The position numbers and the translations under genes are program-made. DNA of 64,000 nucleotides from an uncultured Mycoplasmatota bacterium (GTDB taxonomy: Bacteria; Bacillota_I; Bacilli_A; Izemoplasmatales; Izemoplasmataceae), in NCBI GenBank assembly GCA_913062645.1, contig CAJXVW010000002.1, positions 124,001-188,000 on the forward strand. The letters run 5' to 3'. Shown in pieces: positions 28,493 through 63,437 of this stretch. The notes under the pieces were generated by a model. The model did not search any database. It saw nothing but the letters and a program-made list of their open reading frames with translations, and had not been told where the DNA came from. Each line of letters begins with the position of its first letter. The first letter of the stretch is position 1.

Positions 28493-29206
28493 TCAGATTG
28501 CCTTGCCGGAATGTTGTGTCTCCGCGCGTAGCGTCGCGACTTCGTCTGCTCGGAGATGACGCCACTCGCCCAGTGCCAAACCATCCACATGAACGGACAT
28601 GATACGAATGCGCACCAGTGATGTGACACGATATCCCAGAGCCGAACACATCCTTCGAATCTGGCGGTTCATGCCTTCGGTGAGAATGATCTTGAACCGC
28701 GTTTTGGACTGTTGCCGGAGGACGGCCGGTTTGGTGATCTTGCCAAGAATCTCCACGCCTTCACGCATCTGTTTCAAGAACAGACTGGTAATCGGCTTGT
28801 TCACGTCAACGACGTATTCTTTTTCATGATTGTTGCCGCTGCGTAAGATCTTGTTGACGATATCACCATCGCTGGTGAGCAACAACAATCCTTCGCTGTC
28901 CTTGTCGAGGCGGCCGATCGGAAAGATGCGACTGGGATAACCCACGAAGTCGATGACATTGCTCGGATCCTTGAGATCGGTCGTCGAGGTGACACCGCGT
29001 GGTTTGTTGAGCGCGAGATAGACGAAAGATTCCTTGCGCGTCACAGGTTCACCGCGGACGAGGATTGCATCTTCCGGCTCGACCTTTCGGCCGATCGTGG
29101 CAACCTCGCCATTGACGATGACATCGCCGGCAGCGATCAGCCGATCGGCTTCGCGGCGACTGCAGTAGCCGGTTTCACTCAAATACTTGTTGAGTCGTTT
29201 GGACAT
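28493..29206 (-). CDS. rluF: 23S rRNA pseudouridine synthase, RluF-like
   Basis: 237 residues, ATG behind AGGGGGA. It has an N-terminal S4 RNA-binding domain (1-60), then the RsuA/RluB/E/F catalytic domain with D101 in GRLDKDSEG. GNNHEKEYVVDVNKPIT, EGMNRQIRRMCSALGY and the terminal GEWRHL are closest to RluF, which modifies U2604 of E. coli 23S rRNA. The C-terminal 15 residues are poorly conserved. It is a single leftward gene. Confidence 0.88.
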   Translation of the reverse strand: MSKRLNKYLSETGYCSRREADRLIAAGDVIVNGEVATIGRKVEPEDAILVRGEPVTRKESFVYLALNKPRGVTSTTDLKDPSNVIDFVGYPSRIFPIGRLDKDSEGLLLLTSDGDIVNKILRSGNNHEKEYVVDVNKPITSLFLKQMREGVEILGKITKPAVLRQQSKTRFKIILTEGMNRQIRRMCSALGYRVTSLVRIRIMSVHVDGLALGEWRHLRADEVATLRAETQHSGKAI

Positions 29207-29295: not shown

Positions 29296-30108
29296 TCATC
29301 GATCGATGCGGTAGACGATCGAATCGCAATGGGGACGGTATCCGATGTCCATGTAGATCTTGTTCGAGGTCGGATTGCCGAGGTCGGTGTACAGCGTGGC
29401 GATGCGTCCCTCGTCATGAATCTCCTTGGTCAGGAGTTCCACGATGCGGGTTGCGTAACCGCGCTTGCGCTTGGCAATGGGAGTGAACACATAACTGACG
29501 GTCTCGGTCTGACGAAGCGGACGCGTGCGTTGCGCCATCGAGACGATCTCGCCATTCACTTCGAGAACACGCAACACCCCGGCCTGAACGCGTGCTTCGA
29601 CGATTGGGCCGATGGCATCGATGTCGGCGTGCCCTTCGACCATGACTTCGAAGTCATAAGCCCAGGGAATCAGCGTCTTGACGTCGTTCATCGTCGCATT
29701 GCGATAGATTCCTTCATCATGACAAACGTGCGTGATGGTCGCACAGGAATAGATGCGCTGATCCATTTCCTTGATCATCGGTTGTCCGATGATCTTTTGA
29801 AAGATATGCGCATAGACATCACAAATCGATTTCTCACCGATGATGCCCGGGTAATCGACATGGCGCATGTACTCCACGAGTTCACGGTACAAGGAGGAAT
29901 CGTGCGTATCCGCGGCAAGAATCATCTTGCGACCGGCGATCATCCCGAGCAATCGGCGATCGTCCTTCGTCACGGCAATCAACAGGTCCGGGATCATGCC
30001 ATGGCGTTGCATCAGACCGATCATCAATCCGTTGGTGACTTCATCCCGCTCCAAAAAGTCAAGATGATCGTTCAAAAACGATTGTTTGTCATCATAGACT
30101 TGCAACAT
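29296..30108 (-). CDS. GNAT-family N-acetyltransferase
   Basis: 270 residues, ATG behind GGAGTGAG. The C-terminal half holds the GNAT core: a beta-strand VSYVFTPIAKRKRGYATRIVELL with the acetyl-CoA loop (R-K-R-G-Y-A) and GNPTSNKIYMDIGYRP. The N-terminal ~120 residues resemble the extra domain of two-domain GNATs such as the FR47-like group. The acceptor substrate is unknown. Confidence 0.85.
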   Translation of the reverse strand: MLQVYDDKQSFLNDHLDFLERDEVTNGLMIGLMQRHGMIPDLLIAVTKDDRRLLGMIAGRKMILAADTHDSSLYRELVEYMRHVDYPGIIGEKSICDVYAHIFQKIIGQPMIKEMDQRIYSCATITHVCHDEGIYRNATMNDVKTLIPWAYDFEVMVEGHADIDAIGPIVEARVQAGVLRVLEVNGEIVSMAQRTRPLRQTETVSYVFTPIAKRKRGYATRIVELLTKEIHDEGRIATLYTDLGNPTSNKIYMDIGYRPHCDSIVYRIDR

Positions 30109-30272: not shown

Positions 30273-30301
30273 TTGACATTATCAATTTTATGCGTTATGA
30301 T
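30273..30301 (+). promoter_or_regulatory. Near-consensus promoter of the small-protein pair
   Basis: A perfect TTGACA (30273-30278) and TATGAT (30296-30301) are separated by exactly 17 bp. They lie in a very AT-rich stretch (30180-30300) that would act as an UP-like element. This is the strongest-looking promoter in the balanced-composition part of the window and predicts abundant transcript. The rest of 30109-30366 holds no gene. Confidence 0.85.
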
Positions 30302-30366
30302 ATAGTTGTAAGATAGAAAAAACAACTTGTCCACCACATAACCACACCAATCAAGGAGGTGTCACC

Positions 30367-30480
30367 ATGTACGACTTCAACTCATACGACTACAATCCGA
30401 TCAGCGCCGAGCTGGTAAAACGCCAACAGGACTTGATGGATTTCGCAAAATCAAAGCGCAACAGCAAACGCAACCGATAA
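30367..30480 (+). CDS. Small protein, paralogue 1 (37 aa)
   Basis: ATG 30367 lies behind AAGGAGGTG at ideal spacing. The product starts MYDFNSYDYN and ends in KRQQDLMDFAKSKR...RNR, a Tyr/Asn/Asp N-half and a basic helical C-half, with no hydrophobic segment. It shares its start (MY), the core KRQQ-(D/E)-L-x-D-F-x-K and the ending RNR with the gene 53 bp downstream. Strong promoter, strong ribosome-binding sites and duplication argue that it is real. No family is recognised; a secreted peptide, nucleic-acid-binding or structural role cannot be told apart. Confidence 0.75.
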   Translation: MYDFNSYDYNPISAELVKRQQDLMDFAKSKRNSKRNR

Positions 30481-30533
30481 CGCAACCATTCCACGTCCCA
30501 ACAACACAACCTACCAACCAAGGAGGGATCATC

Positions 30534-30641
30534 ATGTACAATACAATCAACTACAACGGCTTCGAAAACGAATACCTCAAACGGCAACAGGAACTCGCCG
30601 ATTTCTTCAAAGCCAACGACAAACAAAGACGCAACCGATAA
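30534..30641 (+). CDS. Small protein, paralogue 2 (35 aa)
   Basis: ATG 30534 lies behind AAGGAGGG. The product starts MYNTINYNGF and continues E-Y-L-KRQQELADFFKAND...RRNR. Alignment with the 37-aa neighbour shows a tandem duplication with conserved KRQQ-(D/E)-L and RNR ends and a divergent Tyr/Asn-rich N-terminus. The two share a promoter and terminator. Confidence 0.75.
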   Translation: MYNTINYNGFENEYLKRQQELADFFKANDKQRRNR

Positions 30642-30670
30642 TCTCACTCTTTCTGTTCTCCTCCATATGA

Positions 30671-30708
30671 AAACAACCGATTCTTCGCGGAATCGGTTGT
30701 TTTTTTTG
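30671..30708 (+). terminator. Terminator of the small-protein pair
   Basis: A 13-bp stem, AAACAACCGATTC / GAATCGGTTGTTT, followed by eight T, 30 bp after the second small gene. Confidence 0.92.
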
Positions 30709-30842
30709 TTATTTCGTACCAAATCCAATCGAATCGGGTGCGTGTTTTCATGCCAATGTTTCGAATTTCAAACTTGTTCGTGAAATCAGACGAGAAACAT
30801 TATACAATGAAGATGTAAACCAAACGACTGGAGGAACACGGA

Positions 30843-33551
30843 ATGAACATTAAAAGCATCCGATGGATTCTGTTCTTCCTCGTCTTCACACTGACATCAT
30901 GCAACGGACTTCCCGAAGATGTGGAAGAATACACCGCGACATATTGCCAGGACCATCCTGACACTTCGTTATGCAAAGGTACCAACATCGACGATTTGCA
31001 ATCGCAACAGGTGGAAACCATATTTTGGGACATGGTCGACGAACAAGACCAACAGGATTTTTGCACATCCTTCGTGTCGCTGTCGAATCTCGATTTGTAC
31101 GACGACTGCATGGAAGGAGTCGCATTCTTCCCCGAGCAGTTGGACGACTACGAGATCGCTTCAATCGAGATCACCGATGCGGCGAACCACAACATCGTAA
31201 CGATCGAACTCGTCAAGGACGCGACGCATCCGACATACACCTTCGACATCACGCTGGTGTTCATCAACGACGCCATCCATGTCGAATCCTGGTCCTATGC
31301 GACCACCGAAGCATTCGACTACTTTTCTTATTTACAGACCTTCTTGCTCGGCCTCAACAGCGTATCCTTGAGTGATCAGGAAGTTTGTGGTGACTATCTC
31401 GAACCCGGCGCCGCCTACGATGCCTGCGTGCTCAAACGCAGGCAGGTGATCGACGCCCAGGAAACCATCTCCATCACCACCATGAACTGGAAAGACCAAA
31501 GCAATCTCATATTCGAGGTGGTCCTCGCCATGACGGGCGAAGACGGCGCGTATGGAGAAACTCTGGAAGGGTCCTTCTATCAGGACGACTCCGACAACAC
31601 ATGGATCGACCTCGTGTTGCCGTTCGGCATCTCCCGTGCCGAGCGCACGGCCATCCTGACGCAACTGGTGGCAGACACCAACAACTTCGCCATCGCCACC
31701 AGCACGATCGTGAACGGCGCGTTCACCACAGACACCGAAGCCATGTACGTTCCGATCCGGGAGTACCTGATTGAGCACGATATGGAGATCACTGATTTCG
31801 AGATCGTGTTCGGTTCCACGACCTTCTCGTTCACGCTCGACAACGACGACACCTATGTATATGATGTCCTGTGGGAGTACGACGATGGCTGGGTCATGGA
31901 CTGGCAGCGGCAATACGATGCCGCCGACATCACACAGCTCGACAAGATCCTGTTATTGGAACAGTTCACCAACGGCATGAACACCAGTTCCGCCACGCAC
32001 GACTACTTCTGCGCGCTGTTCGTGACAAGCGCATCGACGATGGATTGCGAAGCGCTACGAACGTCATTGTGGACCAACGAGGAGATTTTGACGTTGGGAG
32101 AAGTCACGTACGACACAAGCCCCTCGGACGTGTGGTTCGTCATCATGGATGACGCGCTCACCGATGTCGTGTACCATCTCCAGTACGATCTCGACTTCAT
32201 GGTGGACGACAATCGCCTGATGCTGCAGTTCACGAATGAACGAAACTACCTGCCGCTTGCCTTGGCGGATGTGGAACTGCTTCTCGAAGCGATGGTGGAC
32301 GATGCCAACGATCTGATGCTCGCCGACAGCGTGTTCTGCGAACGGTTCGGTCACCTCTTCACCGACTGTCTTGATTTCCGCAGTCGCATCTCCGGCGACA
32401 TGTGGTCGGTGATGCTGGAAGAACTGGTCGAAGAAGACGATGGCGATTACACCCTGACACTGGGCATGTACGACATGATGATGCGCCTCGCCGAACGGCT
32501 TGTATTCGATGTCTCGGTCTATGAGGATCTCGAGGAGAACCCAATCATCATGGGCAGCATCATCGAAGATGTGCTGATTCCACCGGATGAAAACTACGAC
32601 ACCTTGTTCGCGGCCTTCATGGAAGATTACTTCGATCCTACCGTCACCGATCAGGACATCTATGACACCTACAATGACGGCTGGGAGTTCGAGGGATTGT
32701 ATCACCGCGATCTGATCTTGGATGAAGATCTAACCTATGTCATCGGCGACATCACCTGGCACGCCGACATGGGCTATACCTGGTACGAAGCAATCGTGAC
32801 CTTCACCTATCCCGATGACTCGTTCATGATCGTCACCATCCAATACGAAATCTTCGCCGGCATCGACAATGACTTGTTCCGTCTGGTCTTTGACGCCGGC
32901 ATGCCGAGTGCGTATACCGTCAATCTCCGTACCGATGACTACCTTGCCGATCTGGATGACGGAACCATGACGAACAGTGCGTTTTGCACGGCTTATGCGT
33001 CACCTTGGGATTACGACAATTGCCTCCGTTTCCGTGCCCAGTACGCAAGCGGTGGATTCACAGCCGCACTCAACTCCGTCACCGCCGAAGAGTATGAAGC
33101 ATCCTTCCTGGTGGACTTCACCGATGGAGTAAGTCATAGCTCCACACTGGAGATGGTGTACCATCCGCTCCACGACCTGATGGGATATCCGTGGTTGATG
33201 GTCGACATCACCCATCCGGATACCGAACTAATTGCCAGTTTCGGTAACTTCGTCAGCAACGGAATCGTCTACGGGTTCAACACCCACGGCATCAATCTGA
33301 CCACGTTCTGTGACGAATTCGCGGAATGTGGTACCGCATTTGACGACATCACCACCGGCATCGACTATCTGACCTATGGAGAAGTGCGCTGGGATCTCAC
33401 CGACTTCTTCGCCCCGCAACTGGTGGCCAACATCCGCTTCACCTACATGGGTGGCGACATCGAAACACACGAGTATTACGGCACCTATGTCATCGATGGT
33501 GAATACTATGTATGGACGCTGCATTTCATCCAGAAAGCGCAGCTGGAATAA
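30843..33551 (+). CDS. 902-aa lipoprotein of paired-cysteine repeats
   Basis: Lipobox LTSC (C20), ATG behind GGAGG. The mature protein is very acidic and appears built from six to seven divergent ~120-residue repeats. Each opens with a cysteine pair 7-15 residues apart (FCTSF..YDDC, VCGDY..YDAC, FCALF..TMDC, FCERF..FTDC, FCTAY..YDNC, FCDEF..AEC) and continues with beta-strands (e.g. VDFTDGVSHSSTLEMVYH). One repeat in the middle (~590-680) lacks the pair. Disulfides within each unit are likely. I recognise no family. It is transcribed alone, from a promoter with only a clear -10 (TATACAAT, 30801-30808). Confidence 0.8.
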   Translation: MNIKSIRWILFFLVFTLTSCNGLPEDVEEYTATYCQDHPDTSLCKGTNIDDLQSQQVETIFWDMVDEQDQQDFCTSFVSLSNLDLYDDCMEGVAFFPEQLDDYEIASIEITDAANHNIVTIELVKDATHPTYTFDITLVFINDAIHVESWSYATTEAFDYFSYLQTFLLGLNSVSLSDQEVCGDYLEPGAAYDACVLKRRQVIDAQETISITTMNWKDQSNLIFEVVLAMTGEDGAYGETLEGSFYQDDSDNTWIDLVLPFGISRAERTAILTQLVADTNNFAIATSTIVNGAFTTDTEAMYVPIREYLIEHDMEITDFEIVFGSTTFSFTLDNDDTYVYDVLWEYDDGWVMDWQRQYDAADITQLDKILLLEQFTNGMNTSSATHDYFCALFVTSASTMDCEALRTSLWTNEEILTLGEVTYDTSPSDVWFVIMDDALTDVVYHLQYDLDFMVDDNRLMLQFTNERNYLPLALADVELLLEAMVDDANDLMLADSVFCERFGHLFTDCLDFRSRISGDMWSVMLEELVEEDDGDYTLTLGMYDMMMRLAERLVFDVSVYEDLEENPIIMGSIIEDVLIPPDENYDTLFAAFMEDYFDPTVTDQDIYDTYNDGWEFEGLYHRDLILDEDLTYVIGDITWHADMGYTWYEAIVTFTYPDDSFMIVTIQYEIFAGIDNDLFRLVFDAGMPSAYTVNLRTDDYLADLDDGTMTNSAFCTAYASPWDYDNCLRFRAQYASGGFTAALNSVTAEEYEASFLVDFTDGVSHSSTLEMVYHPLHDLMGYPWLMVDITHPDTELIASFGNFVSNGIVYGFNTHGINLTTFCDEFAECGTAFDDITTGIDYLTYGEVRWDLTDFFAPQLVANIRFTYMGGDIETHEYYGTYVIDGEYYVWTLHFIQKAQLE

Positions 33552-58193: not shown

Positions 58194-59447
58194 TTACTTG
58201 TCTTGATTATTATTCCTTTTTTCCAATGCAATCATTTTTAAATAGTCTTTATATGTATATGAGTTTGATGAAATCACAAAATCTAATCCGTTAACAGTCA
58301 CATATTGTAAACCAAATTCATCTACTTGATTACACAATTTAGTATTTGATAATAAAGTTAGTTGATAAACGATATAGTTTTTGCATGAAATCTCGTCTAA
58401 GAAATTCAGTAAATCTATAAATGAATCCAACGTCTCCCCAGGTAAGCCACGAATTACTGATACCTCATACTTAATGTTCAAATCATTCAACTTATGAATT
58501 ATTGTTTGAACTACAGACAAATCATTTACTCTTTCAATACTTCTGAGTGTCTTACCATTGATTGATTGAAGACCAAATTCTAACACCACATTTAATTTGC
58601 TCAACATATCAATTAGCATTTTATCCCTTATCATCTCATTGTTTAGCACTTCAAACTTCGCTTGAATACTCAATGTAGGTTTGAAATTAATTTCAATCAG
58701 GTACATCAACAGAGATTTGTAATTCTTCAATGTAAATATTGGATCTATTATATTCACTTTCTCTACACCAACTTGATCCAAATATTTCAGTTCAACCTTA
58801 ATTTTGTCTAGATTATGCTTAGTGATTTTGCGATGGTCGTTACCTTTATATGAACAGAAAGAGCAGTTATAAGGGCACCCTCTCTTGGTTTCTAAACTAA
58901 CAGTGCTTCCTTTTTTCACATCGATAATATGATTCGAGTAAATTTTCGGAATATCATTATTATTAACGTCTATGCTAACTACCTTTGATTGTATTTCGTT
59001 ATTAATAAGTTTATATAATGCCTCTTCAGCAAAACCAATAATAAAATGATCGACTTGTGAGTATGAAATTTGCAATCTGTTGATGTTCATAGAATTAACC
59101 TCATACCCACCACAAATAATCTTCGCAAAACTAGATGCATCCTCTATTAGTATGAGCAGATTATTCATATAACTCATAGACCAAGCATACATCCCAACAC
59201 ATATGTAATCATATTCTGAAGAAAGTTGTTCTGTAAGTTGTTGCATTTGTGAAAAATATATTGAATCTGATTCATTCATATTGAACGAAAACACATCAAT
59301 ATTTATTAACTTCATCTTGTTTTTTAAGTACGATTCTAGTGTGGCTACTGCTACACTTTTTTTCGGCTTATTTGTAAAATGATAATCGAACGTAATAAAT
59401 AATACATCGACTACACTATCTTTCTTTTTATTTCTTTCAAGCGTCAA
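58194..59447 (-). CDS. Cobalamin-type radical SAM protein in a defence cluster
   Basis: 417 residues from TTG 59447. Residues ~13-150 form a B12-binding-like Rossmann fold (VLFITFDY..., YICVGMYAWSMS, IICGGYEVN) without the DxHxxG cobalamin ligand. The radical SAM core follows, with the iron-sulfur site C191-x3-C195-x2-C198 (RGCPYNCSFCSY) and later strands VVLEFGLQSINGKTLRSIERV and EVSVIRGLPGETLDSFI. The reaction is unknown. The same frame stays open ~61 codons further upstream with Cys-rich sequence, and the ribosome-binding site AAGGAGG lies at 59634-59640, so the true start may be upstream. It is the third gene after two OLD-family ATPases. Confidence 0.85.
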   Translation of the reverse strand: MTLERNKKKDSVVDVLFITFDYHFTNKPKKSVAVATLESYLKNKMKLINIDVFSFNMNESDSIYFSQMQQLTEQLSSEYDYICVGMYAWSMSYMNNLLILIEDASSFAKIICGGYEVNSMNINRLQISYSQVDHFIIGFAEEALYKLINNEIQSKVVSIDVNNNDIPKIYSNHIIDVKKGSTVSLETKRGCPYNCSFCSYKGNDHRKITKHNLDKIKVELKYLDQVGVEKVNIIDPIFTLKNYKSLLMYLIEINFKPTLSIQAKFEVLNNEMIRDKMLIDMLSKLNVVLEFGLQSINGKTLRSIERVNDLSVVQTIIHKLNDLNIKYEVSVIRGLPGETLDSFIDLLNFLDEISCKNYIVYQLTLLSNTKLCNQVDEFGLQYVTVNGLDFVISSNSYTYKDYLKMIALEKRNNNQDK

Positions 59448-59638
59448 AAAATTGACAGCTCTTACTTTTTGCTGATTACCGTTATTACCACTTACAAACT
59501 CTTCAATCGTCCATCCATACTTACTACACTCATTATTATATTGCTCATATCTTATTTCTTTACCAGAATAATCTTGACAATAAGATTTTCTACCACATGT
59601 TCGTTCCCATACATCTTTTTTGTTGAATCTATACCTCC

Positions 59639-61429
59639 TTAATCAAGCCTCATTCTATTCACTATAATGTTTAGTTTCTCAATTAGTCCTTCAGATAATT
59701 CACCATCGTTTTCGAAATGTTTCTTCATCTTTGTAACATCCATTTTGTTATCTCCATTATGAATCTCTGTCAGATTCAGAACATCCTCTTCAGAAAGATA
59801 TGATTCTATTTCCTGAATGTCCTCATTTCCAGCAACATGTATTACATCGCTATATTGCTCATACTTATTACCAAGTGCTCTTTTAATATTTTTGACTTTG
59901 TCATAATCTACCAATGCAACAAAATCCAATCCAAGATTCACACAAATTCCGATCATCTGAGTTATACCTTCTCCTGCACATTGAATTAAGTTATATCTAT
60001 CTAAATCTTTTTCAGTGTACTTGTTGATATAGTATTCTAATAACATCTGATCGGTTTTACCTTCTACTAAAATCATCTTCTTCAAAGACATTATTAGTAA
60101 TTTACCAACAGTTATTCTAGTTGCCTCTTCAATATTAGACAAATCCATTGGTTCAACAGTAATCTCATCATCGATACTAGTTCTCAAAACTTTGGAATCA
60201 TGTCTTAAAACAACTAAATGTGACATGTGTGTTGTATAAATTATTTGATATTCTTCATCGATTAGAAGTTCAAATACTTCAAATAATCTTCTTTGTATTG
60301 ATGGATTCAAATACATTCCGGGTTCATCAATAAATAGCAACTTACTTTCTTGTTCAGATACTCTTTTTGCTAGATACACAACCCACTTTTCTCCATCTGA
60401 AAGAGAATCATAACTAGCATCCACAATTGGAACACCCAATATCCCAACAATTTTCTTACCTAGATCATTGAGTTCAATTTTATCTCTTTGTCTAGCATTT
60501 ATAAAACTACTCGAAATTATGTTTGATTTTGTCAAGTAATTCAAACAATTTTTTTCAATATCTTGTAAAAGTTCATTGTACTTGTCAATTGCTTCGGATA
60601 TATTTTTCTCTTTGTCATCTAAAATATCTAATTCATTCTTAATTTGCTTCTTTTTACCTCTCATAAACTGTTTTAGATACTCAATCTTCTCTTTTAGTTT
60701 ATAATAATAATCTTTCATTCCTTCTAAATCGTACTTGTATCCGTCAGCTTCAATAGTCAAATCCTTTACTGAATCATAGAATGTAAGAAACTCTTTTTCT
60801 TCCATAAAACTAATATCAAATATATTTCTGTCGACATATTTATTGAAGTTAAAATCCATAAAAGGCGTTGTATCAGATTGATGCAAATTAGTCTCATTTT
60901 CAATAAACTCACTGAACCTGTTAATTTCTTCATCAAGTACATCTCTATCAAAGAAAATAATTGGTCTTCCATATACATCTGCATCCCAAACTTCAGACGG
61001 TATACCTTTTAGTTCACTATCGATTTCTAATAACATTGCATGAACTTTCTTTTGAAATGCATAGAAATACTTTATATCCACATTTAGGTACTTAATGATT
61101 TCTTCAAGGTATTCCTCGTGACCTTCCAGAATAAATTCATTATGATTCCAATTCTCACCATCAAAATGGAATGTAGCGGTTAATAGTGTGTTCATTTCAT
61201 CTTGTAGAAAATCCAAATCACTCACATCAACTGAAAATACGTATGAATTGCTCGTTCTATAATCGTTAATTATACCCTTACTATATCTACCTGAAATTCC
61301 CTCTAGCAATGTTGTTTTACCACTTGCATTATCACCGATAATACATGTTAACTTCTCAGATAAGTTTACGGTTTGATTTACTATTTTTTTATAATCTCTA
61401 ACTATTACGTTCTTAAGTTTGATATCCAT
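59639..61429 (-). CDS. OLD-family ATPase with intact TOPRIM domain
   Basis: 596 residues, ATG behind AGGAGG. The ABC-type ATPase has Walker A IGDNASGKTT (31-40), a coiled coil (~235-300), signature SLSDGEKWVVYLAKR, Walker B LLFIDEPGMYL and an H-loop TTHMSHL. The C-terminal TOPRIM nuclease domain has E456 (ILVEGKTDQMLLEYY) and the D508-x-D510 pair (ALVDYDK). This is the OLD/GajA architecture: ATP-regulated DNA nicking or cutting. No GajB-like helicase follows; instead a paralogous ATPase precedes it by 16 bp and a radical SAM gene follows. Confidence 0.92.
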   Translation of the reverse strand: MDIKLKNVIVRDYKKIVNQTVNLSEKLTCIIGDNASGKTTLLEGISGRYSKGIINDYRTSNSYVFSVDVSDLDFLQDEMNTLLTATFHFDGENWNHNEFILEGHEEYLEEIIKYLNVDIKYFYAFQKKVHAMLLEIDSELKGIPSEVWDADVYGRPIIFFDRDVLDEEINRFSEFIENETNLHQSDTTPFMDFNFNKYVDRNIFDISFMEEKEFLTFYDSVKDLTIEADGYKYDLEGMKDYYYKLKEKIEYLKQFMRGKKKQIKNELDILDDKEKNISEAIDKYNELLQDIEKNCLNYLTKSNIISSSFINARQRDKIELNDLGKKIVGILGVPIVDASYDSLSDGEKWVVYLAKRVSEQESKLLFIDEPGMYLNPSIQRRLFEVFELLIDEEYQIIYTTHMSHLVVLRHDSKVLRTSIDDEITVEPMDLSNIEEATRITVGKLLIMSLKKMILVEGKTDQMLLEYYINKYTEKDLDRYNLIQCAGEGITQMIGICVNLGLDFVALVDYDKVKNIKRALGNKYEQYSDVIHVAGNEDIQEIESYLSEEDVLNLTEIHNGDNKMDVTKMKKHFENDGELSEGLIEKLNIIVNRMRLD

Positions 61430-61445
61430 TTAGTCCTCCTCCCCA

Positions 61446-63437
61446 TCAAAAAAAATCTGACAATTTTTTGTAATTATTCTTTTTAGCTATCGCAACAAAA
61501 TCTTCAAGAAGATAGATGTTCTTCGATCCTACAATTTCAATAAGTGATTCGTATCTACCTCTATTTTGAATAACGCAAACAATCTCGATTCCTTTCACTC
61601 TTAACAAATCGATTAATAGTTTGTATGGTTTACTTCTAACTATACCTGGAATCACTTGTAAATCTTTATCAATACCTAGTTGTATAATTGTTTTCAGAAA
61701 GTGCTTGGAATCAGGGTGAACGAAGACTACTTTCTTTCTGTAATCGACAAACATGCCTTGTAGATACTCTAACTCCAAAGCTTCTACTATAACTTCTTCA
61801 ATATTATTGTCTATCTCGCGACAAATTATTTCATCATCAGTCTTTACCACTTCACTCATTGACACTTCATTAATATTTAATGGGATAAGTGCAGCAGTAT
61901 GAGTCGTATACATTACTTTGCAGTCCATATCAACTATTGTCTGAATCACCTTTAGTTGTTTGCTTTGATGTAGAAATAGAGCTGGTTCATCAATTAATAG
62001 TAAATCAGAGTAAGATAATAATTGTTTAATTAGCCCAAAACGCAATCCCCAAATCGTACCACTTGACATGTTCCCAATCTCTACATCTGCTTCACTATAA
62101 AACACCTTTGTGTTATGAATAGAATATGGTTTTTCATCAGATGGTACTATGTTGATAGTATCTATTCTTGAGTCATATTCCGAAACAACATCTACGAAAA
62201 CCTTACTAAGCCAATCATGAATATATTCATAATTCATGTCGAAGTATATTTCTTCAAAGCCACTTTCATAGTCTTTAATAATGTCTCTATTAGCAAGGAA
62301 TCTTCTAACTCGTTTCTCAAAATCAGGTAAATCATCAATAAATACTTTCATTGCATCATCAGAGTCTACAAAAGCTTTCTTAAAACTGTTTTCATCGTCA
62401 TATGATCCGATACTTCCATGAAGCACTTTGAAATCCTTCATAATGGAATAATATTCAAAAGTCTTGATTTTATCTTCTACATCCGATAAAAAATCGTCAC
62501 CGATTAGTTCATACAGTTTTGGTTTTATGACTTTTAACGCAGTTGTGATGATTTCACTGTCCAAATTGTAATTGATATTGTGATCAATAAACTCTACATT
62601 CTGAATCGTATTTCGTACTAGATACTCATATAAATCGGAATAATCAGCAAATAAAACATTATAGGTATCAATCAAATCATTCATTTCTTTCATATGATTC
62701 ATAAGCTCATCATATAAACCGGGATACAGTTTATCAAACTCATCCAAATAATCTTTGTATACAGATGTTCCATCAATCCTGAATTGCTTAAATAGCTTCT
62801 CTCCAAAGCTAACATGATCCGGAATATTTCCACAATCAATAGCAATCAAGTACTCGGGTTCTCTCAATCTATAAAGTTCTAATCTTGAACCTCTACCACT
62901 AATCCAACCATCGAACTCATTCTCTTCAAGTTTGCTTGTAACACTATAGCTTCTTCCATTATTAGCCAAATGTTCATATACAACATAAAACTTGTTTGGA
63001 TCTATATCATTCTCTTGGGCGAAAATGTTAAATTTCTCTCTTGTATCACGAATTACATTCATGCATTTTTCATTCTCTTGTAGTATCAGCTTTTTTAGAT
63101 GTTCATACTCCTTTATCGTCCAGGGACAATAAAACTTGGGGTACCCGAACATCTCATTGTGCATTAGAACTGAGAGCTCTCCCTCATGCTCCAGTGTCAA
63201 CATATCATATACTATATCACCATTCTCAATCACATACTCAATAGAAGAATCTTCAATATTGAAATAATCACCATACACTCTAGGTAATCTTCTGAATATC
63301 TTGTATACAGCCTTCAGCAAAGTTGATTTACCTGAACCATTCTTGCCAATAAAGCAGTGTTTATCCCTTTTGAAGTTTATGCTATGTTCTTGAACATAGA
63401 ATTTATCTAACTTGAAATTTATCTTTTGAAGTCTCAT
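61446..63437 (-). CDS. OLD-like ABC ATPase with degenerate TOPRIM-like end
   Basis: 663 residues, ATG behind GAGGAGGGTGAT. It has Walker A IGKNGSGKST (30-39), a long helical insertion (~100-400), signature NMSSGTIWGLRFGL, Walker B DLLLIDEPALFLH and H-loop YTTHTAALIP. The C-terminal ~130 residues follow the TOPRIM order of strands, but the expected Glu motif reads KKVVFVHPDSKHFL and the D-x-D strand reads IEIVCVIQNRG, so the metal ligands are lost. It is probably a regulatory or recognition partner of the active enzyme encoded next. Confidence 0.85.
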   Translation of the reverse strand: MRLQKINFKLDKFYVQEHSINFKRDKHCFIGKNGSGKSTLLKAVYKIFRRLPRVYGDYFNIEDSSIEYVIENGDIVYDMLTLEHEGELSVLMHNEMFGYPKFYCPWTIKEYEHLKKLILQENEKCMNVIRDTREKFNIFAQENDIDPNKFYVVYEHLANNGRSYSVTSKLEENEFDGWISGRGSRLELYRLREPEYLIAIDCGNIPDHVSFGEKLFKQFRIDGTSVYKDYLDEFDKLYPGLYDELMNHMKEMNDLIDTYNVLFADYSDLYEYLVRNTIQNVEFIDHNINYNLDSEIITTALKVIKPKLYELIGDDFLSDVEDKIKTFEYYSIMKDFKVLHGSIGSYDDENSFKKAFVDSDDAMKVFIDDLPDFEKRVRRFLANRDIIKDYESGFEEIYFDMNYEYIHDWLSKVFVDVVSEYDSRIDTINIVPSDEKPYSIHNTKVFYSEADVEIGNMSSGTIWGLRFGLIKQLLSYSDLLLIDEPALFLHQSKQLKVIQTIVDMDCKVMYTTHTAALIPLNINEVSMSEVVKTDDEIICREIDNNIEEVIVEALELEYLQGMFVDYRKKVVFVHPDSKHFLKTIIQLGIDKDLQVIPGIVRSKPYKLLIDLLRVKGIEIVCVIQNRGRYESLIEIVGSKNIYLLEDFVAIAKKNNYKKLSDFF

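Follow-up and report, generated by a model that had tools for sequence, protein, structure and literature searches.

A putative tandem-duplicated small-protein operon without detectable homologues in an Izemoplasmataceae genome

Organization of the two-gene unit

The window (the whole 64,000 nt stretch of DNA that was analysed) contains, at positions 30273–30704 of the forward strand, a unit that can be read from the sequence as one promoter, two ORFs and one terminator. It opens with a sigma-70 type promoter (30273–30301, +), in which TTGACA (30273–30278) and TATGAT (30296–30301) are separated by a spacer of 17 nt; with 11 of 12 consensus positions matched it was the top-scoring promoter of the region, and it agrees to the base with that proposed in an earlier, sequence-only reading of this DNA. 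The presumed 5′ leader is A/C-rich and would extend for ∼59 nt (30308–30366, +; transcription start inferred), followed by ORF1 of 37 aa (30367–30480, +; MYDFNSYDYNPISAELVKRQQDLMDFAKSKRNSKRNR), an intercistronic leader of 53 nt (30481–30533, +) and ORF2 of 35 aa (30534–30641, +; MYNTINYNGFENEYLKRQQELADFFKANDKQRRNR). Both ORFs are backed by the paralogue alignment and neutral simulation described below. The two ribosome-binding sites had been called excellent and are strong, as each ATG is preceded at a distance of 7 nt by the Shine–Dalgarno (SD) sequence AAGGAGG (30353–30359 for ORF1 and 30520–30526 for ORF2, both +). Downstream of ORF2 we found a C/U-rich 3′ UTR of 27 nt (30642–30668, +), with a putative anti-SD sequence, CTCCTCC, at 30658–30664, and then the expected strong intrinsic terminator, with a 16-pair stem and a T run (30669–30704, +); its other side is A-rich, and it is possibly bidirectional.

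On one side the unit is flanked by a divergent GNAT gene (29296–30108), with an RluB-like pseudouridine synthase gene (28493–29206) also in the neighbourhood, and on the other by a gene for a 902 aa protein with a lipoprotein-like start (30843–33551, +). As the GNAT gene is divergent and the downstream gene has its own ribosome-binding site past the terminator, the unit is free-standing. The ORFs antisense to it (30390–30728 on the minus strand, and others) have either a TTG start or no visible SD sequence. Promoter, two SD-led ORFs and terminator together support the description of this locus as a compact expression unit and, from an anatomy that is itself plain in the DNA, we infer that it is transcribed and translated.

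Several further features of the window were recorded. The 902 aa protein matched no Pfam family, and related but much longer open frames (1253–2197 aa) are present at other places in the genome as well as in mates from the genus and the family. At 58194–63437 (−) a neighbouring pair of AAA_15/AAA_21 ATPases is encoded, of which one carries a TOPRIM domain of OLD-like type; the pair adjoins a radical SAM-like ORF and resembles a defence-type or OLD-like gene pair. The G+C content of the window is 46.7 %, well above that of the named genus-mates Ca. Izemoplasma sp. HR1 (31.3 %; PMC7761423) and Xianfuyuplasma coldseepsis zrk13 (38.2 %; PMC8397711).

Paralogy of the two ORFs and evidence for protein coding

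The proteins specified by ORF1 and ORF2 are 46 % identical (BLASTP E = 8 × 10−10), and their local alignment score of 81 compares with a maximum of 46 in 20,000 shuffles. The previously described pattern MY...KRQQ-(D/E)-L-x-DF-x-K...RNR is present as written, in the form K18-R-Q-Q-D-L-M-D-F-A-K28 in ORF1 and K16-R-Q-Q-E-L-A-D-F-F-K26 in ORF2, both proteins ending in R-N-R, and the similarity lies beyond chance. At the DNA level, homology between the copies spans ∼150 nt (score 89, null maximum 44) and covers the two leaders as well as the SD sequence. Because the alignment reaches into leader and SD, the ORFs with their leaders are, on this evidence, a tandem duplication.

The copies differ at 42 of 105 aligned nucleotides, yet no in-frame stop has arisen; 16 residues are identical, five of them specified by different codons, and the other changes are conservative. 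When an equal number of changes was simulated under neutrality, the observed BLOSUM similarity was reached in 5 × 10−5 of runs, and 22 % of runs stayed stop-free. With the changes fixed at the observed sites and the bases alone randomized, the same similarity was reached in 3.7 % of runs; thus, much of the constraint signal comes from where the changes fall. Estimates by the NG86 method for ORF1 against ORF2 were 0.50 for dN and 0.98 for dS and, given a dN/dS of ∼0.5 with a large error, constraint on the pair is modest or mixed.

In order to place these signals against a genomic background we used 243 kb of the genome, of which 179 kb are further stretches. The short ORFs (18–70 aa) with AAGGAGG before an ATG in this sample were ORF1, ORF2, uS14 (identified by reading of its sequence) and one ORF of 19 aa. 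A promoter and an AAGGAGG sequence are not exceptional singly, but their combination with two ORFs of <40 aa is. That the ORFs are spurious, lying within a non-coding or decaying region, would fit with the lack of a homologue of either in any relative (see below); it is at odds with the coding-type divergence between the copies and with two full SD sequences, a promoter and a terminator, and we consider it very improbable. As such, ORF1 and ORF2 are, as judged from these patterns, highly likely to be protein-coding, and very probably are translated genes.

Search for homologues

Searches for relatives of the pair were uniformly negative. Neither tblastn nor a two-sequence profile detected a homologue of ORF1 or ORF2 in 150 relatives, nor did a DNA similarity search of the same number of relatives detect one of the unit; no homologue was found in 90 genomes of the order (Ca. 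Izemoplasma HR1 and Xianfuyuplasma zrk13 among them), in 395 genomes of the class, in the 84,980 species of GTDB 220, or in IMG/VR, 50,697 phages and 72,556 plasmids. A degenerate DNA pattern for KRQQ(D/E)L gave only chance matches across the order. These searches are able to see the family at 44 % identity, as the ORF2 query recovers ORF1 at an E-value of 2 × 10−4. No family in Pfam, NCBIfam, PHROGs or PADLOC matched either ORF up to E = 10, in keeping with the claim that the proteins are unrecognized.

The best sub-threshold matches were read and set aside. The match in a QueH-like protein (L051, E = 9.6 × 10−4) lies inside a long ORF of another family, L052 is a long DJ-1/PfpI-like ORF with a similar frame in several relatives, L212 and L213 lie inside a cytidylate-kinase-like ORF, and G111 is without a proper start; the three protein names are readings of the sequence rather than results of a profile search. 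Matches of ORF1 in N4-like phages (E = 2–9) were 29–32 % identical and lay mostly under large annotated proteins.

The sequence-only reading had named two outcomes that would count against it: no homologue with conserved start and stop in any relative, and no transcript. The tBLASTn check that it proposed, for short KRQQ(D/E)L-containing ORFs in tandem, returned none, and the first of these outcomes is therefore what we found. Its term 'family' holds for two tandem copies in one genome, but extends to no homologue anywhere searched. Over the 12–18 kb compared with genus-mates, the RluB-like gene (28493–29206) alone was in common, so that the unit may have been either gained here or lost in the genus-mates. 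With two proteins of <50 aa that bear coding constraint, and no detectable homologue outside the lineage, the pair has the properties of orphan small proteins. We therefore regard the unit, as far as its sequence allows, as a genuine lineage-restricted small-protein gene pair, new in sequence and of a kind already known.

Strength of expression and the 3′ tail

The unit had further been described as probably highly expressed. Sites that match at least 11 of the 12 consensus positions number 14 in the 243 kb of genome, its promoter included, and AAGGAGG was found in 21 of 193 sampled larger genes. Codon usage is ordinary, at the 62nd and 77th percentile relative to length-matched gene pieces, with the ribosomal-protein region as reference. 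Measured up to the terminator, the transcript is richer in A+C than any of the 2,546 stretches of equal length in the 64 kb. Around both start codons the local folding is weak (−6.9 and −5.0 kcal/mol, compared with −8.0 to −14.7 kcal/mol in four other genes). Over its full length, the transcript shows no deficit of structure relative to its shuffles (z = −1.4), on account of the terminator. A strong promoter, strong SD sequences and the most A+C-rich transcript thus speak for the description, whilst ordinary codon usage and signals that are not rare speak against it; as codon usage is ordinary despite the strong signals, high expression is plausible only.

The tail UCUCACUCUUUCUGUUCUCCUCCAUAU, directly before the terminator, holds the putative anti-SD sequence, and CTCCTCCAT occurs a single time in the window, in this tail. 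A stretch of the 3′ UTR (30642–30668) is complementary, with a 2 nt bulge, to the ribosome-binding site of the 30843 gene (30829–30843; UGUUCUCCUCCA versus UGGAGGAACA). The transcript might accordingly act as an RNA, alone or in addition to its coding function, with the CUCCUCC seed repressing other mRNAs, foremost that of the lipoprotein-like 30843 gene, or, in a variant, with the tail shielding the 30843 ribosome-binding site in read-through transcripts. C-rich sRNAs are found in Gram-positive bacteria, and the C/U-rich anti-SD seed can be likened to these. The predicted duplex has an energy of −20.3 kcal/mol, a value that 0.17 % of shuffled tails and 21 of 3,456 random 27-mers attained, and the tail also pairs with this site in the predicted read-through fold. 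However, three other ribosome-binding sites of the window pair nearly as well (−20.2, −19.8 and −19.0 kcal/mol), as they would with any anti-SD sequence, and the pairing test was chosen after the sequence had been seen, so that the tail is no more than a lead. Moreover, Rfam gave no match above the gathering threshold, and an RNA function does not account for the constraint that the two ORFs show at the protein level; we therefore hold it to be unlikely. A composite, in which a dual-function mRNA that arose within one Izemoplasma species specifies orphan paralogous peptides modulating a nucleoprotein machine, and also sets its neighbours' translation through the anti-SD tail, seems a very slim prospect.

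Predicted structure and proposed role

AlphaFold predicts one helix for each protein, at residues 11–35 of ORF1 and 8–34 of ORF2, with a pLDDT of ∼80–90 in the core, although the models were built from two sequences and a single helix is the outcome for many short charged peptides. The N-terminus of both is predicted to be disordered and is rich in Tyr, Asn and Asp, and the C-terminal end is basic. Net charge is +3 for ORF1 and +2 for ORF2, and neither has a hydrophobic stretch. The models thus predict soluble, one-helix peptides with a basic end.

Release after export, with the peptides acting outside the cell as signals, bacteriocin-like agents or at surfaces, might be expected of paralogous products of very small size that are specific to the lineage, seem to be strongly expressed and are specified beside a probable lipoprotein gene. 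In disagreement with this, no export signal is visible in either sequence, signal peptide, double-glycine leader and hydrophobic segment all being absent; no dedicated transporter or immunity gene is adjacent, and the basic tail suggests a cytosolic partner, be it nucleic acid or acidic. An extracellular role is thus rather improbable. Two tiny genes in one operon behind a strong promoter are also reminiscent of a toxin–antitoxin or type I toxin module, but the ORFs are paralogous, neither is a hydrophobic peptide or a known antitoxin, and PADLOC and Pfam gave no match, leaving little room indeed for such a module.

The QxxLxxFF sequence of ORF2 resembles a PCNA-interacting box, which could point to a sliding-clamp ligand, and the best PDB chain for the profile of the pair was the C-terminal PCNA-binding peptide of p21, albeit at chance level (E = 0.74). 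Bacteria have a beta clamp, the ligand consensus of which, QL(S/D)LF, is spaced differently; ORF1 has FA in place of FF and so lacks the second aromatic residue, and the models put the motif within one continuous helix. With no significant motif similarity kept in both copies, the pair was not counted among sliding-clamp peptides, and we give a clamp function almost no credence.

The neighbourhood (GNAT, RluB-like pseudouridine synthase and 902 aa probable lipoprotein) points to no partner. The account that we favour is that, in a single species of the Izemoplasma/Xianfuyuplasma lineage, one tiny gene was duplicated in tandem with its leader and so gave rise to a bicistronic operon. Its mRNA, ∼400 nt long and A/C-rich, would be made from a promoter of the sigma-A type, would carry two ribosome-binding sites, each strong and independent of the other, and would stop at the intrinsic terminator. 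The products would be soluble peptides with a flexible, Tyr/Asn/Asp-rich N-terminus, a helix in which the conserved KRQQ(D/E)LxDFxK lies, and RNR as a basic end; the helix may dock on a partner protein or complex, and the basic end may contact nucleic acid or an acidic surface. The peptides could then be present in abundance and, small as they are, modulate a nucleoprotein machine, e.g. the ribosome, RNA polymerase or the nucleoid, the two copies serving to raise dosage or permit heterodimers. The gene would be lineage-restricted, either newly born or diverged past recognition. We put the probability of this whole account, from duplicated operon to soluble helical peptides modulating a nucleoprotein partner, at a little under one half; the nucleoprotein partner within it is a guess.

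If translated, the pair would be a clear example of a small-protein gene that is very young, or evolves very fast, and has nonetheless already been duplicated with its leader and ribosome-binding site. This would be in a free-living lineage that lacks a cell wall and has relatives in culture; the group, for which few functional data exist, would thereby gain a small-protein family. On present evidence the unit opens no new type of system.

Comparison with known systems

Among small regulatory proteins of Bacilli, Sda, SR1P and MciZ resemble this pair in size, in the predicted helix and in likely docking on a larger partner; the pair differs in being tandem-duplicated and without a family match. 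The phenol-soluble modulins of staphylococci are encoded in tandem small-peptide operons and are exported, amphipathic surfactants. As with these, a single mRNA of the present unit would specify very short peptides that are paralogues of one another, with a strong ribosome-binding site for each; in contrast, its peptides are hydrophilic with a basic tail, and a best 14-residue helical moment of ∼0.41 with a mean hydrophobicity below zero does not place them among phenol-soluble modulin-like peptides. Taxonomically restricted small proteins of bacteria are exemplified in Mycoplasma pneumoniae, where 153 small-ORF proteins have been reported using ProTInSeq (PMC10920889). As far as that report describes them, they and this pair are alike in being very short, missed by family libraries and found in a wall-less relative of the Firmicutes, whereas what we describe here is a tandem-duplicated pair on a dedicated promoter–terminator unit, the translation of which is predicted from sequence.
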